Of a stretch of 64,000 nt of DNA, positions 13,611-29,417 are shown piece by piece. The notes under the pieces were generated by a model that did not search any database, was not told the DNA's origin, and saw only the letters and a program-made list of their open reading frames with translations. Position numbers and translations under genes: made by a program. Numbering within the stretch: position 1 is the stretch's first letter; each line of letters begins with the position of its first letter. Origin of the DNA: Flavobacteriales bacterium (lineage in GTDB: Bacteria; Bacteroidota; Bacteroidia; Flavobacteriales_D; Sanyastnellaceae); NCBI GenBank assembly GCA_029238785.1, contig JAQWFN010000095.1:1-64000 (forward strand), in the 5' to 3' direction.

Positions 13611-13640
13611 AAAAAAGGCCCGAGAGCAATCTCGGGCCTT
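13611..13640 (-). terminator. Rho-independent terminator after the ECF sigma/anti-sigma pair
   Basis: A perfect 10-bp stem AAGGCCCGAG / CTCGGGCCTT with a 6-base loop is followed on the minus strand by TTTTTTG. It lies 27 bp downstream of the stop at 13668. Confidence 0.9.
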
Positions 13641-13667: not shown

Positions 13668-14939
13668 TTAAGGTATTATCGTAATTGTTCCACTGTAAAA
13701 TTCTTCTTGACCTTGCTTGTTATAAAGGATAACAATCCATGGAAACTTATCTCCAACTTTTGCCACTTCTCCTCCAGGAACTGTTCCATCCCATGGCTTT
13801 GATGCGTCTCTTGTTTCATAGATAACTTCTTGTCCGTTATAAACTGCAAGTTTAAATTTCTGAGCCCCTGACTTCAAAGCCTCTGGCATAAAGCTATCGT
13901 ACTTGCCATCATCATTTGGGGAAATTTGTTCTCGAGCCAAAAGCTTGTAATCTTTATCTACACTAACATAGTTGTACTTGGTATCTGAACAACCAAATTT
14001 GTTAGAAACCGTTAAGCGAATGGTGTGTTCTCCCTTGTTTTTGAATGCAATACTAGGATTGATTTCTTCGCTTGCAATAGCGTCATCAACCAGCCACTCG
14101 CATTGGTCTGCAAACTCACTTTGGTTGACGATTTTGACGCTTGGTTTCTCGTTTGGATTTTCTTGAAACTCCCATTCAAATGCCGCTTCAGGAGTTGGAT
14201 TAATAACGATTAGGTTTTCGATCGTTTTCGTTCTGATTTGACCATCTTCTTTTCCCGTTACAGAAAGCGTAATATCATATACCCCTTGGTTCAAGTAAGT
14301 ATGAACAGGATTTGCTTCATTAGAGAAATTACCATCTCCAAAGTTCCAAAGGTAGTTGCCCTCATTACCGTCGGTAAACAAGTTGAATTCAACAGCAGAC
14401 CCTTCGCAAGCAGAGCGCACGCTGGGCATGAAAGCTAATCCTTCGTCCTTCATCGACAACAAGGCGGTTTCAATAGGATCTTCTTTCTCAAGGTTAATTT
14501 CAGCCGCTACAGTCTCTTTCGCTGGTGCATTGTTAGCGATTGCTGAGCGTGAATTACCGGGTAACTTTGCTTCGGTAGATGCTTCTAATTCTTGAACATC
14601 AGCCATAGCCTCTTGATGGCTATACTGACTTTTGTGCAAGGCAACCAATTCCTTTTTCGCCTCAACTACTTGGAAATAATTTGCATCAATTTCTTTTCGA
14701 GAATGACTTGAAAGCGCACCTGCACTAGCTGAAGCATCACTTGTGTAATACCAAACCGCGGCACCACCTAACATAACCGCAACGAAGGCTGCGGCAGCAA
14801 CCATGTTTGCAAGATTACTTGAGATCTTACTCGGCAACTGCTTTTCGAGATTTTTCCATGCATCTGGATTATAATCCACACGCATTTCGTTAACGCTCTG
14901 CTTTACCTTATTTTCGAATGTACTTAAATGTTTTGCCAT
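13668..14939 (-). CDS. Single-pass membrane protein, putative anti-sigma factor with PKD folds and a type-B-CTD-like end
   Basis: 423 residues with no signal peptide. About 42 N-terminal residues (DYNPDAWKNLEKQL, an anti-sigma-like pattern) are predicted cytoplasmic, followed by one transmembrane helix (about 43-65) and a large periplasmic part: a low-complexity linker (70-175), a PKD domain (NYLWNFGDGNFS, about 185-240), a second PKD-like domain (about 250-330), and an end that aligns with type B T9SS sorting domains (ISPNDDGKYDSFMP...KLAVYNGQEVIYET...PWDGTVPGG...GTITI). It sits 5 bp downstream of the ECF sigma gene, so the anti-sigma role is inferred from position, topology and length of the cytosolic tail; it is not a FecR-type protein. 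A sorting-domain-like module tethered to the inner membrane is unusual and could sense T9SS state. Confidence 0.75.
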   Translation of the reverse strand: MAKHLSTFENKVKQSVNEMRVDYNPDAWKNLEKQLPSKISSNLANMVAAAAFVAVMLGGAAVWYYTSDASASAGALSSHSRKEIDANYFQVVEAKKELVALHKSQYSHQEAMADVQELEASTEAKLPGNSRSAIANNAPAKETVAAEINLEKEDPIETALLSMKDEGLAFMPSVRSACEGSAVEFNLFTDGNEGNYLWNFGDGNFSNEANPVHTYLNQGVYDITLSVTGKEDGQIRTKTIENLIVINPTPEAAFEWEFQENPNEKPSVKIVNQSEFADQCEWLVDDAIASEEINPSIAFKNKGEHTIRLTVSNKFGCSDTKYNYVSVDKDYKLLAREQISPNDDGKYDSFMPEALKSGAQKFKLAVYNGQEVIYETRDASKPWDGTVPGGEVAKVGDKFPWIVILYNKQGQEEFYSGTITIIP

Positions 14940-14944
14940 TAAGC

Positions 14945-15499
14945 TCAGTGTGTTCCGTTTCTAAGAATTTTGGCCAGATTACGTTTCGCTTTCGCCAAAT
15001 TCGATTTCGAGGTCCCTACACTAATGTCGAGCTTATCGGCAATCTCCTTGTGCGTCAGGTTCTCAAACACATAAAGGTTAAAGATGGTCCTGTACGCCGG
15101 TGAAAGTTCATGCATTGCTGCTAGTACTTGGTCTGGTTTAAATTCAACTTCCTCTTCTCCCAAGTCTTCTTCAATCAATTCGGCAAAATCCTCCAATGAT
15201 TGATCTTCTTGAAGTAAGATAAAATCGTTTTTTCGTTTTCTCAGTTGGTCAATTGCTGTATTGGCAATTATCCGCCTAATCCAACCTTCAAATGAGCCTT
15301 CATAGTTGTATGCCTCTAACTTGGCAAACACCTTCAAAAAACCATCCTGCAAAATATCCGCCGCCTCGTCCGCGTTCTTAGTATACCTCATTGAAACTAT
15401 CATCATCTTGCTGTAATAGCGTTTGAAGAGTTCCTCTTGAGATTTCCTTTTCCCACGAACGCATCCATTGATTAGATCTCTCAAATCCGACTCTGGCAT
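14945..15499 (-). CDS. ECF-type RNA polymerase sigma factor
   Basis: 184 residues with the sigma-70 region 2 signature (DILQDGFLKVFAKL, then FEGWIRRIIANTAIDQLRK for 2.3-2.4) and region 4 helix-turn-helix (LSPAYRTIFNLYVFENLTHKEIADKL, broken here only by wording; the HTH is at about residues 130-175). The length is typical for ECF sigma factors. An acidic linker (about 100-125) joins the two domains. It should direct RNA polymerase to a small regulon and be held by the membrane protein encoded 5 bp downstream. A paralogue lies at 28872-29417 with a similarly placed membrane partner. The upstream GCAACC/GTCTATTA motif suggests autoregulation. Confidence 0.93.
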   Translation of the reverse strand: MPESDLRDLINGCVRGKRKSQEELFKRYYSKMMIVSMRYTKNADEAADILQDGFLKVFAKLEAYNYEGSFEGWIRRIIANTAIDQLRKRKNDFILLQEDQSLEDFAELIEEDLGEEEVEFKPDQVLAAMHELSPAYRTIFNLYVFENLTHKEIADKLDISVGTSKSNLAKAKRNLAKILRNGTH

Positions 15500-15513: not shown

Positions 15514-15543
15514 TAATAGACGCACCTTCTTATGAAGGGTTGC
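15514..15543 (-). promoter_or_regulatory. Putative autoregulated ECF promoter
   Basis: On the minus strand GCAACC, 16 bp, GTCTATTA, ending 15 bp before the sigma gene's ATG. AAC-type -35 and GTC-type -10 elements are typical of ECF promoters, and the same pattern occurs before the second ECF gene (29432-29462). Confidence 0.6.
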
Positions 15544-15617
15544 CCGTTATTCTGACGAATTAAGTGATTTTTTTTGAATGAGCTACAAACAAGAACTCAA
15601 AGAGCTGATTTTCAACA

Positions 15618-16010
15618 CTAAGCTACTTCTCTCATGAGCGTATGTTGAAGAAAACTGTCGATATCGTTTTTCGAAACAAAGTCTTTCACACAAGAATGTG
15701 ATAAAGCGCGCTCTTTGTCTTCTACTCGAAGTGACGAACTAAGCATGAATATTTTACAATTGGGATTCTTCAAGGTATACTCTTTCTCGAAGTACTCAAT
15801 GAAATCAAAACCGTTCATTACGGGCATGTTGACATCCACATAGATAACGTCTGGACAACTATCTAGCTTCGCCAAAATTCCCAAAGCATCTTCCACCGAG
15901 TCTGCCTCATAAACCTGAATATTAGGGTCTGCAAGCTTAATAAACTCGTTCATGATAAAGTTACAACTCGGGTTGTCATCGATCAATAGTACACTTTTGA
16001 CGAATTCCAT
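15618..16010 (-). CDS. Stand-alone response regulator receiver protein
   Basis: 130 residues, a single receiver domain and no output domain. Acidic pocket Asp11-Asp12 (LLIDDNP), predicted phospho-acceptor Asp59 (VIYVDVNMPVMNG), Ser91 in IFMLSSS for the conserved Thr/Ser, and Lys114 in DFVSK. It resembles CheY-like or Spo0F-like relays. No kinase is adjacent; candidates in the window are the hybrid kinases at 53715-58068, but pairing cannot be told from sequence. It is transcribed in the same direction as the ECF sigma gene, 118 bp upstream, with the ECF promoter-like motif between them. Confidence 0.93.
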   Translation of the reverse strand: MEFVKSVLLIDDNPSCNFIMNEFIKLADPNIQVYEADSVEDALGILAKLDSCPDVIYVDVNMPVMNGFDFIEYFEKEYTLKNPNCKIFMLSSSLRVEDKERALSHSCVKDFVSKNDIDSFLQHTLMREVA

Positions 16011-27080: not shown

Positions 27081-27203
27081 ACCTTAACCAAAACAACTAA
27101 TTAAAATTCTTAAATCGGTTCCTTGCAGGGATCCTTATGAAAGAATTCAACTAAACTCTCAATAATAAGACGCTTAAAAGGGGGGAATTGTTGTGTACTC
27201 GGC

Positions 27204-28148
27204 TTATAAAAATATGTTAAAGCCAAATTGAATGCGGGAAGACCAAGTGGTCCATGTGAAATTTTGAGCACTTGAATCAACAAGCAAGCTTGGGGTTTCC
27301 CCCACGTACCGGATGCTATAAGCAAAGCTGTCATTAGAATTCCTCCGAACTGCTCCAAACTGGACTTGGCCGTTCACCCAATTGTTTTTAGTAATGTAGG
27401 TCTCGGCTTCAATAAACGCAGTTGTTTTCGGTTCATCTAGAAACAAAACAGAAGGTTGTTCAAGGGCGACTTGCCGACCATAAACCACAGCCAGGCCGAT
27501 ATCCCAGGTCCATTTAGCTTTTCTATTGTAGTAAGGCTTTTGGTACCTCACTCCTAGGGGAACGTGAACGGAGCTCAACACTAAATCGTTCCGGTTTATG
27601 GCTAAATCGATGGTGTCGTTTTCAAGCACCGTAATACCGCCAATCTCATACCGAAGTTCTAGTATTTGGCTGAGTTCGTTCTCTCCAAAGCTTTGAAAAA
27701 AGGCTAGGCTATCATCCAGCCCTTGATCATCAAAAATTCGATTCTGATAGTTTGCTCTATTGAAGTGAATTCCAGTAAAAAGCCACCAGTCTGGTTTTAT
27801 TTCAAGTTCAAACCGACTTCCAAAGCCCAGAACTGCTCCCGATCTTGTGGCATTTCCCGTGAGTTCATTCACGCTTTTCGAATTCGGCTTGTCTAGGCTC
27901 GATCTTGTGAGTCCGACTTCTGGAAAGAAACCGAGAATTTTCTCCTGCTTTTCCCACCACGATGTTTTGTTTGGTTCTTCTTCTTGACCAAGCGTATCCA
28001 CCTCAACAATCCGCTGAACAATGAGTGTTGTTTGATCGATGATAATGGTATCAGCAAGGGCCTTTACACTCGAAGGAGCGAAAAAACAAAGGAGCAAAGC
28101 ACATACTACTGCTTTGCTCCGAATATGATTTATAAAGGTCTTTTTCAT
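27204..28148 (-). CDS. Predicted outer-membrane beta-barrel protein, function unknown
   Basis: 314 residues. An N-terminal signal segment (about 10-32, SKAVVCALLLCFFAPSSVKA) is followed by a short spacer with WWEKQEKILGFFPEVGLT and then alternating hydrophobic/polar strands (GFGSRFELEIKPDWWLFTGIHF, about 108-129; VPLGVRYQKPYY) ending with a C-terminal aromatic residue motif (IQFGFNIFL), all typical of 8-12-strand porin-like barrels. No family-specific motif recognised. It is third in an apparent unit: ECF sigma, membrane partner, barrel, so its expression or sensing role may be tied to that sigma factor. Confidence 0.8.
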   Translation of the reverse strand: MKKTFINHIRSKAVVCALLLCFFAPSSVKALADTIIIDQTTLIVQRIVEVDTLGQEEEPNKTSWWEKQEKILGFFPEVGLTRSSLDKPNSKSVNELTGNATRSGAVLGFGSRFELEIKPDWWLFTGIHFNRANYQNRIFDDQGLDDSLAFFQSFGENELSQILELRYEIGGITVLENDTIDLAINRNDLVLSSVHVPLGVRYQKPYYNRKAKWTWDIGLAVVYGRQVALEQPSVLFLDEPKTTAFIEAETYITKNNWVNGQVQFGAVRRNSNDSFAYSIRYVGETPSLLVDSSAQNFTWTTWSSRIQFGFNIFL

Positions 28149-28194: not shown

Positions 28195-28869
28195 TTACTT
28201 TACTTTTTGTTTCGATTTCAAGGTAATTCCCGTTTCCTTCGCTCCTGTTTTCGCTTGGTCTAAAATACCTTGAGCATTGTCAACACTTGGCACTTCTGTT
28301 TTTTCTGCGCTTGAAGCAGCTAGTTCTTCAATGGCATTTGCAAAATTCAAGTTCTGATCTCTTTGAAGGTCTTTTTCGAGAATCACCTCATGTCTTACCT
28401 GAACTTGAGCCAAATTAATTGCTAAAGTACGAGCGTTTTTCTTGCTGTTGTTCGCAGATGAGGCATTGGACTTTGATTGATTTACAAGACCACGCTGATG
28501 TGAATTCAATTGAGAAGCAAGCTTCTGAATTTTCAAACTCGAATCATCATCGTCCAGATTTTCCTCCTCATTTAAACTCAAATGTTCTTGCGTCTTTTCC
28601 ATCGCTGCTAAAGACAAATCTTTCTCTTTTGGGGTAAATGAAAGCGCTGAGCTTTCTCCTCCTTCGTTGGCAAAGAGACTGAAAGCTAGTCCTACTGCAA
28701 TAAGGGCAGAAAGGGTATAAACGTTCAGGCTCGTCCACGAGAAGTACCAGAACCCACCTTTGTTCATTTTCCTATGAACGGCGGCAAGTGTTCCTGCTGG
28801 GGCTGGTGCTTCGTACTGGGCAAATGCCTCGCGGTACGTTTCAAACAATGGGTCTTCGTGACGTTTCAT
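28195..28869 (-). CDS. Single-pass membrane protein, putative anti-sigma factor
   Basis: 224 residues from the ATG at 28869, two bases after the sigma gene's stop; an in-frame GTG at 28875 overlapping that stop is an alternative. The N-terminal cytosolic segment (about 1-45, ETYREAFAQYEAPAPAGTL) resembles Bacteroidota anti-sigma tails, with one transmembrane helix about 48-66 (YTLSALIAVGLAFSLF). The periplasmic part is charged, coiled-coil-like and ends in basic residues (KSKQKVK). Role inferred from adjacency to the ECF sigma gene. Unlike its counterpart at 13668 it has no PKD or sorting-domain-like module. Confidence 0.75.
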   Translation of the reverse strand: MKRHEDPLFETYREAFAQYEAPAPAGTLAAVHRKMNKGGFWYFSWTSLNVYTLSALIAVGLAFSLFANEGGESSALSFTPKEKDLSLAAMEKTQEHLSLNEEENLDDDDSSLKIQKLASQLNSHQRGLVNQSKSNASSANNSKKNARTLAINLAQVQVRHEVILEKDLQRDQNLNFANAIEELAASSAEKTEVPSVDNAQGILDQAKTGAKETGITLKSKQKVK

Positions 28870-28871
28870 TC

Positions 28872-29417
28872 TCACAAGTTTATCTTACTCAACTTTTGCA
28901 ACTCGCGCTGCAAATATTTCTTTGCTCTTGAGAGTTGCGACTTCGATGTGTTGATATCGATGTTGAGCTCTTCAGCAATTTCTTTGTGCTTATATCCTTC
29001 AATCACATACATGTTGAAGACAATTCTGTACCCATCTGGCAAATTATTGATGGTGCTCATCAACTCTTCTTTGGTATACTCATCAACTCCAAAAGGAGCG
29101 TCGGTAGTGCGGGCTTGAGGCACATCCTCAATGTCGTGATGATAAGCGTGCTTTAAGTTTATCCGATAGTGTGTAATCGCTGTATTAACCATAATCCTGC
29201 GAATCCAACCTTCGAAAGAATTGTTGATGGTATAGCTGTCGATGTTCTTATAAATCTTCACCCAACCTTCCTGCAGCACGTCCTCTGCATCAAATCCGTT
29301 CTTCGTATACCTCAAGGCCACTCCATAGAGCATGTTTCCATACTTTTTATACAGGGCATCCTGGTGTTTCCTGCTTTGCTTTTTACAGCCTTCTATGAGT
29401 TCCTCCAGTGTGTACAT
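28872..29417 (-). CDS. ECF-type RNA polymerase sigma factor (second copy)
   Basis: 181 residues with region 2 (DAEDVLQEGWVKIYKNI, FEGWIRRIMVNTAI) and region 4 (LPDGYRIVFNMYVIEGYKHK, EIAEELNIDINTSKSQLSRA) signatures; clearly related to the sigma factor at 14945-15499. Both carry the same FEGWIRRI segment and YRxxFNxYVxE...HKEIA pattern, suggesting they recognise similar promoters. The putative anti-sigma follows immediately. The upstream GCAACC/GTCT motif suggests autoregulation. Confidence 0.93.
   Translation of the reverse strand: MYTLEELIEGCKKQSRKHQDALYKKYGNMLYGVALRYTKNGFDAEDVLQEGWVKIYKNIDSYTINNSFEGWIRRIMVNTAITHYRINLKHAYHHDIEDVPQARTTDAPFGVDEYTKEELMSTINNLPDGYRIVFNMYVIEGYKHKEIAEELNIDINTSKSQLSRAKKYLQRELQKLSKINL

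Follow-up and report, generated by a model that had tools for sequence, protein, structure and literature searches.

The window analysed here, a stretch of 64,000 nucleotides, encodes an ECF sigma factor followed by a putative anti-sigma factor whose C-terminus is, by profile comparison, homologous to the type B sorting domains of T9SS cargo. Taken together, gene order, predicted topology, domain homology, conservation between genomes, the loss of cargo motifs, and the conservation of a promoter and a small RNA suggest an envelope-surveillance pair, in which a pseudo-cargo domain docks on the T9SS and the sigma factor is freed when docking is lost. We give this reading about an even chance of being correct.

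The mechanism that we infer covers sigma binding, T9SS docking, the nature of the signal, cleavage and the functions of the outputs. Residues 1-43 of the anti-sigma would bind the ECF sigma and hold it at the inner membrane, and a transmembrane (TM) helix with a flexible tether of ~100 residues would place two PKD folds and a sorting-domain mimic in the periplasm. There the mimic may dock on a T9SS component that reads type B tags, either a PorP/SprF-type shuttle or the SprA translocon, and it would stay unexported for want of RWG, a motif retained by all neighbouring cargo. Docking would be lost or outcompeted when cargo piles up or when the translocon is absent or jammed, after which the anti-sigma could be proteolysed or reshaped and the sigma released. 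Free sigma would then act on its own operon, on the gene of a DUF5684 membrane protein and on a conserved small RNA, through GGCAAC-N15/16-CGTC promoters.

Architecture and conservation of the sigma/anti-sigma pair

Sigma regions 2 and 4 are both present in the gene directly ahead of the putative anti-sigma, whose ORF begins 5 nt downstream on the same (minus) strand (Table 1). Full-length homologues of the anti-sigma were found in most of the 114 genomes of the organism's own family, in several further families of the order, and in many families across class Bacteroidia. The ECF sigma gene lies directly upstream, often overlapping, at all 29 family loci; it adjoins the homologue at 68 of 80 loci in a second collection (several of the exceptions fall at contig ends) and at 27 of 28 class-level loci. 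The sigma/anti-sigma architecture described in a first-pass annotation of this DNA thus recurs across Bacteroidia, and the homologues retain the C-terminal domain. The 423-aa product, anchored in the membrane, probably holds the ECF sigma inactive. A single-domain response regulator (15618..16010, minus) is located just upstream of the sigma gene and is found at the same position in a few loci (cluster 13).

Table 1. Features of the window discussed in the text, with positions counted from its first nucleotide.
Feature	Position	Strand	Evidence or remark
ECF sigma factor, 184 aa	14945..15499	minus	Sigma70_r2 + Sigma70_r4_2; TIGR02937 4.9e-30
Putative anti-sigma factor, 423 aa, type-B-sorting-domain-like C-terminus	13668..14939	minus	ORF, Pfam, AF2, homologues
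Cytoplasmic helical domain (putative sigma-binding), residues 1-43	14811..14939	minus	Motif FExxLKxxLExYEvPYnxxxW; profile match 97.9% to N-terminus of the second pair's anti-sigma
Transmembrane helix, residues 44-69	14733..14810	minus	AF2 helix; hydropathy peak, single hydrophobic segment from residue 44
Periplasmic tether, mostly disordered, residues 70-167	14439..14732	minus	pLDDT <50 over most of 67-87, 104-154, 161-165
PKD domain 1, residues 168-248	14196..14438	minus	PKD_4, AF2
PKD domain 2, residues 249-332	13944..14195	minus	PKD/PKD_3, AF2
Type B (CHU_C) sorting-domain-like module, residues 335-423	13671..13937	minus	Without RWG; YSGTITIIP replaces GxVxLxR
Terminator-like hairpin, gap between anti-sigma gene and first cargo gene	13611..13638	minus	GGCCCGAG-ATTGCT-CTCGGGCC-TTTTTT; recognised by eye, unscored
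Predicted autoregulatory ECF promoter	15519..15544	minus	GGCAACC-N15-CGTC, then TA; sole match in the 64,000-nt window
Giant type B cargo C1, 1164 aa	10068..13562	minus	CHU_C 4.3e-14
Giant type B cargo C2, 1241 aa	6272..9997	minus	CHU_C 4.8e-17; TIGR04131 above cutoff
Giant type B cargo C3, 1243 aa	2078..5809	minus	Groups in the tree with conserved neighbour cargo of other genomes (10 cargo rows)
Third ECF sigma	28872..29417	minus	
TM partner of third sigma, without CTD	28195..28875	minus	
Type B cargo, 399 aa	25892..27091	minus	Downstream of third sigma pair

The same annotation had described a protein with no signal peptide, one TM helix and two PKD-like folds, and all three features held up. 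The open frame comprises 430 codons for a protein of 423 residues, so there is no room for a hidden upstream signal peptide; instead of the cleavable Sec signal peptide of type B cargo, the protein has a TM helix at 44-69, on which the AF2 model and the hydropathy peak agree. Two PKD stretches were detected by Pfam (PKD_4, E=2.2e-20), in agreement with the AF2 model, which was built on 28 homologues and in which residues 168-423 reach a pLDDT of ~90 and the N-terminus forms helices at 7-18 and 25-34. The protein is accordingly modelled as a predicted single-pass inner-membrane protein with a cytoplasmic N-terminus. Anti-sigmas of this type (A1-type) show an average K/R excess of +1.7 on the cytoplasmic side; a second type, P0002, described below, shows no excess (-0.4). 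Each PKD fold contains one cysteine, C178 and C317, invariant in the 28 aligned family members, and the two might form a disulfide or act as a redox switch.

Type B cargo usually ends in PKD-PKD-CTD, as this protein does, and one could take the protein for plain T9SS cargo or a surface protein that lies downstream of a sigma gene by chance and is anchored by an uncleaved signal sequence. We consider this very improbable: the TM helix is preceded by a conserved cytoplasmic domain of ~43 residues that is homologous to that of other sigma partners, the linkage to sigma is conserved across the class, and the export motifs have been lost.

Homology to type B sorting domains and loss of cargo motifs

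Taken singly, the 423-aa protein gives a real but marginal sorting-domain match, since CHU_C (PF13585) scores just above its gathering cutoff over residues 336-421 (27.9 bits vs 27, E=2.6e-6) and TIGR04131 scores below its own (19.1 bits vs 35). Each of the two models matches 14 of 28 own-family anti-sigmas. In profile-profile comparisons (hhalign), anti-sigma C-termini matched neighbouring cargo sorting domains with 99.0-99.9% probability, a range that includes the anti-sigma set without the SPNGDG loop; the PKD region, used as a control, reached 0.9%. From these profiles we conclude that the anti-sigma C-terminus is homologous to type B sorting domains and that the match at the family level is beyond chance. 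The first-pass annotation had noted that the C-terminal end lines up with such domains; for residues 335-423, CHU_C and hhalign bear this out, while TIGR04131 stays below its cutoff. In a fold search of the PDB, all matches were of the Ig/PKD type, among them fragments of GhpA and PKD domains of collagenase. No structure of a type B CTD had been solved as of PMC12618676.

Compared to type B sorting domains (TIGR04131/CHU_C PF13585), the anti-sigmas share a homologous C-terminus, a WDG segment and, in most members, an SPNxDG loop. They differ in being TM-anchored regulators without a signal peptide, in missing RWG, and, within the own family, in ending with TITIxP rather than GxVxLxR. RWG is present in all 55 neighbouring cargo sorting domains and the terminal GxVxLx[RK] in 54 of them; the 423-aa protein has neither RWG nor the terminal GxVxLxR. 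At the equivalent position, RWG occurs in none of 71 A1-type anti-sigmas of the second collection, none of 27 A1-type proteins at class level, and none of 28 P0002-type proteins, one of which carries DRAG there. Seven apparent RWG matches in A1-type anti-sigmas were rejected, as they lie outside the motif position. Retention of the terminal motif GxVxLx[RK] is partial (16/71, 17/27 and 12/28 in the same three sets). The SPNGDG loop is gone in much of the own-family anti-sigma domains, and many homologues outside the family, as well as P0002-type proteins, retain it along with a basic C-terminal end.

Secretion through the type B CTD of F. johnsoniae needs all five conserved motifs, and the cognate shuttles are PorP/SprF proteins (PMC12618676, PMC9143113); we infer that RWG is one of these five. 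Because RWG is lost everywhere and SPNGDG is lost in much of the own family, the anti-sigma domain reads as a mimic, and these sorting domains look like docking mimics and not exported cargo. The earlier reading of the domain is refined to that extent: its homology and its membrane tether stand, and with RWG absent the domain resembles a mimic for docking more than a signal for export. The annotation is in this way partly supported, its proposals of T9SS contact and of secretion load as the signal being conjectural. In the part of the family where SPNGDG is lost, the domain may no longer act in the manner of a sorting domain.

A second ECF sigma and sorting-domain anti-sigma pair was found in the organism's own genome (contig C68, L169:868-2512, minus). 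Its anti-sigma, P0002 (371 aa), repeats the predicted layout of the 423-aa protein: behind the short N-terminal domain and the TM helix come a tether of ~130 residues, a single PKD fold and a sorting domain that ends in GGNVTLLR. The sorting domain scores 56.5 bits with CHU_C and 37.1 bits with TIGR04131, above the cutoff of 35. P0002-type proteins are present in 28 of 199 genomes of the order, with a sigma adjacent at 28 of 28 loci. The two types share a homologous N-terminal domain (hhalign 97.9%), and their C-terminal modules form separate tree groups, with one change each, apart from most cargo (SH-aLRT 89 each, moderate support for the grouping). This pattern suggests two separate anti-sigma lineages that both bear a sorting domain, and both types occur in genomes rich in T9SS genes or next to type B cargo. 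Farther from the P0002 pair, the same contig carries a PorP/SprF gene and an SprB-repeat cargo.

Within the window, the TM partner of a third ECF sigma probably is related to the sorting-domain anti-sigmas as well, as its N-terminus matches that of the 423-aa type at 89.3% (hhalign), compared to at most 22% for the remaining sigma partners. This third pair is followed by an unmatched 314-aa protein (27204..28148, minus) with an N-terminus that is signal-peptide-like by eye.

Relation to known regulatory systems

To our knowledge, the only roles described for type B sorting domains are as signals for export and anchoring, and no description of an anti-sigma with a T9SS sorting domain was found in the literature searched (open-licence papers). 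Their occurrence in putative anti-sigmas of two lineages suggests that the tag doubles as a signalling module. If true, Bacteroidia would be able to sense T9SS traffic or the envelope gap directly, and with these defined parts one could test what it is that T9SS regulation responds to. In the sigma-E/RseA system of E. coli, an inner-membrane anti-sigma watches outer-membrane protein traffic, and small RNAs (MicA, RybB) are among the outputs. The sensory domain there is unrelated to the present one, and the clients here would be T9SS cargo. We tentatively propose, with somewhat less than an even chance, a conserved Bacteroidia stress response in which a non-exportable copy of a sorting domain monitors the T9SS and the sigma drives the small RNA and DUF5684, as a T9SS counterpart of sigma-E/RseA/RybB.

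Dma anti-sigmas consist of an N-terminal anti-sigma domain, a TM helix, a long disordered tether and an outer-membrane beta-barrel; their partner is an ECF21 sigma and their output is vesiculation (PMC13088901). Compared by layout, the 423-aa protein shares with them a helical N-terminal domain, one TM helix, a long disordered tether, an adjacent ECF sigma and a large outer-membrane-directed C-terminal module; this module is, however, PKD-PKD-type B sorting domain and not a beta-barrel. The best reading of the models is an envelope-spanning anti-sigma that resembles Dma, with a pseudo-cargo domain replacing the barrel. Given this likeness in layout (PMC13088901), the protein could also be a trans-envelope tether in the Dma sense, its sorting domain handled by the T9SS and bound by an outer-membrane shuttle, and it would then sense envelope spacing, pulling or surface events and not backlog. 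A long tether is modelled in both anti-sigma types, and SPNGDG with a basic C-terminal end persists in many homologues outside the own family and in P0002-type proteins. However, both types have lost RWG, and the own family has also lost the C-terminal end and often SPNGDG, which makes this alternative rather unlikely in our view.

Two further systems share elements with the surveillance pair proposed here. In Porphyromonas gingivalis, the surface-located CTD protein PorA signals to an ECF sigma via a histidine kinase and PorX (PorXY-SigP; PMC7712824, PMC4800418). There, too, a CTD-bearing protein feeds an ECF sigma in T9SS biology, but PorA is not an anti-sigma, whereas the putative anti-sigma described here contains the CTD-like domain itself. 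The ECF regulon SM6 of Flavobacterium psychrophilum comprises an ECF/anti-sigma operon, a CGT -10 box, the regulatory RNA Rfp11, a TPR protein and T9SS genes (PMC9723704). Compared by description, a CGT -10 box, an ECF/anti-sigma operon and a regulatory RNA are features of both; the T9SS genes of the SM6 regulon, gldN and porU, set it apart.

Predicted regulon, small RNA and neighbouring cargo

The sigma operon is predicted to be autoregulated via an ECF-type promoter. GGCAAC-N15/16-CGTC lies shortly 5' of the start codon of sigma homologues throughout the family, and most A1-type sigmas at class level have it too. Second-type (P0002) sigmas carry GCAACCTTTT...AGTCT instead, and for this reason we attribute the CGTC sites to the ECF sigma of the window's sorting-domain pair (14945..15499). 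Strict promoter searches of the own genome yielded six distinct sites, three of them intergenic, which precede the sigma operon, a DUF5684 membrane protein gene and a structured small RNA. The other three were discarded as coding, being located in a response regulator 3' end (C80:75262), a cob(I)alamin adenosyltransferase (C81) and a type A cargo gene (C72). Since promoter counts in the own genome showed no excess over a reversed-pattern control (5 vs 7 and 4 vs 7), the argument for a regulon rests on conservation between genomes.

On this footing, the predicted regulon in the own genome consists of the sigma operon, the DUF5684 protein and the small RNA. The DUF5684 protein (PF18936, 3.6e-16) is a small membrane protein (L247:1057-1544, plus, contig C95) whose upstream promoter site is also present in further genomes of the family; no mention of DUF5684 was found in the literature searched (open-licence papers). 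T9SS core genes and PorP genes carry no strict promoter motif in the own genome, and in two other genomes (G046, G048) orthologues of the 399-aa type B cargo have a CGTC promoter. A predicted regulon without T9SS genes is in keeping with a module that is merely a recycled beta-sandwich from an ancient type B cargo, one that makes no contact with the T9SS and senses another ligand or stress in the periplasm. The decay of motifs across half of the own family (each profile matches 14/28) and the grouping of anti-sigma domains apart from cargo in the tree fit this reading as well. Against it, two lineages bear the domain in the T9SS-rich or cargo-adjacent settings noted above, and P0002 still scores above the type B cutoff; we regard recycling of this kind as unlikely.

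The small RNA has about 92 nt (L245:1093-1185, minus, contig C80). It is laid out as a covarying 5' hairpin, in which helix pairs show changes on both sides, a nearly invariant single-stranded core (TTGGTTTCAAAATTTTCCTTGCAGGTTT) and a terminator hairpin (fold z=-3.05). An Rfam search with it found nothing near threshold (best Atu_C8, 25.6 bits vs 50). A covariance model (R1) detected it, mostly as a single copy, in 47 of the 245 genomes searched in the order. The GGCAAC-CGTC promoter is present ~25 nt 5' of the RNA at 29 of the 30 loci read, and the remaining locus has a near match; about 21 of these 30 loci were found by the RNA alone, outside the set that defined the RNA model. The sorting-domain sigma/anti-sigma pair thus appears, from promoter conservation, to control the small RNA. 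A small RNA with a conserved ECF promoter of this kind is undescribed, and together with the recurring sigma/anti-sigma pair it points to a so far undescribed alarm response linked to protein secretion.

Complementarity between the small-RNA core and the start regions of neighbouring cargo genes was not elevated (Mann-Whitney p=0.34). The best pairing with the core among 39 window genes (-21.2 kcal/mol, including CCTGCAAGGAA) is at 27091..27204 (minus), upstream of the 399-aa cargo; it is not significant by itself and lies ~200 nt from the likely true start.

Downstream of the anti-sigma, the window carries the three giant type B cargo genes C1, C2 and C3, and in the second collection such a cargo is usually the next gene. 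None of 56 loci has the promoter between anti-sigma and cargo, and about 20 of them have a terminator-like hairpin there, so any co-regulation of cargo with the sigma operon is conjectural. The own genome also encodes 13 PorP/SprF genes and one PglZ-domain gene, the PglZ domain being as in PorX.
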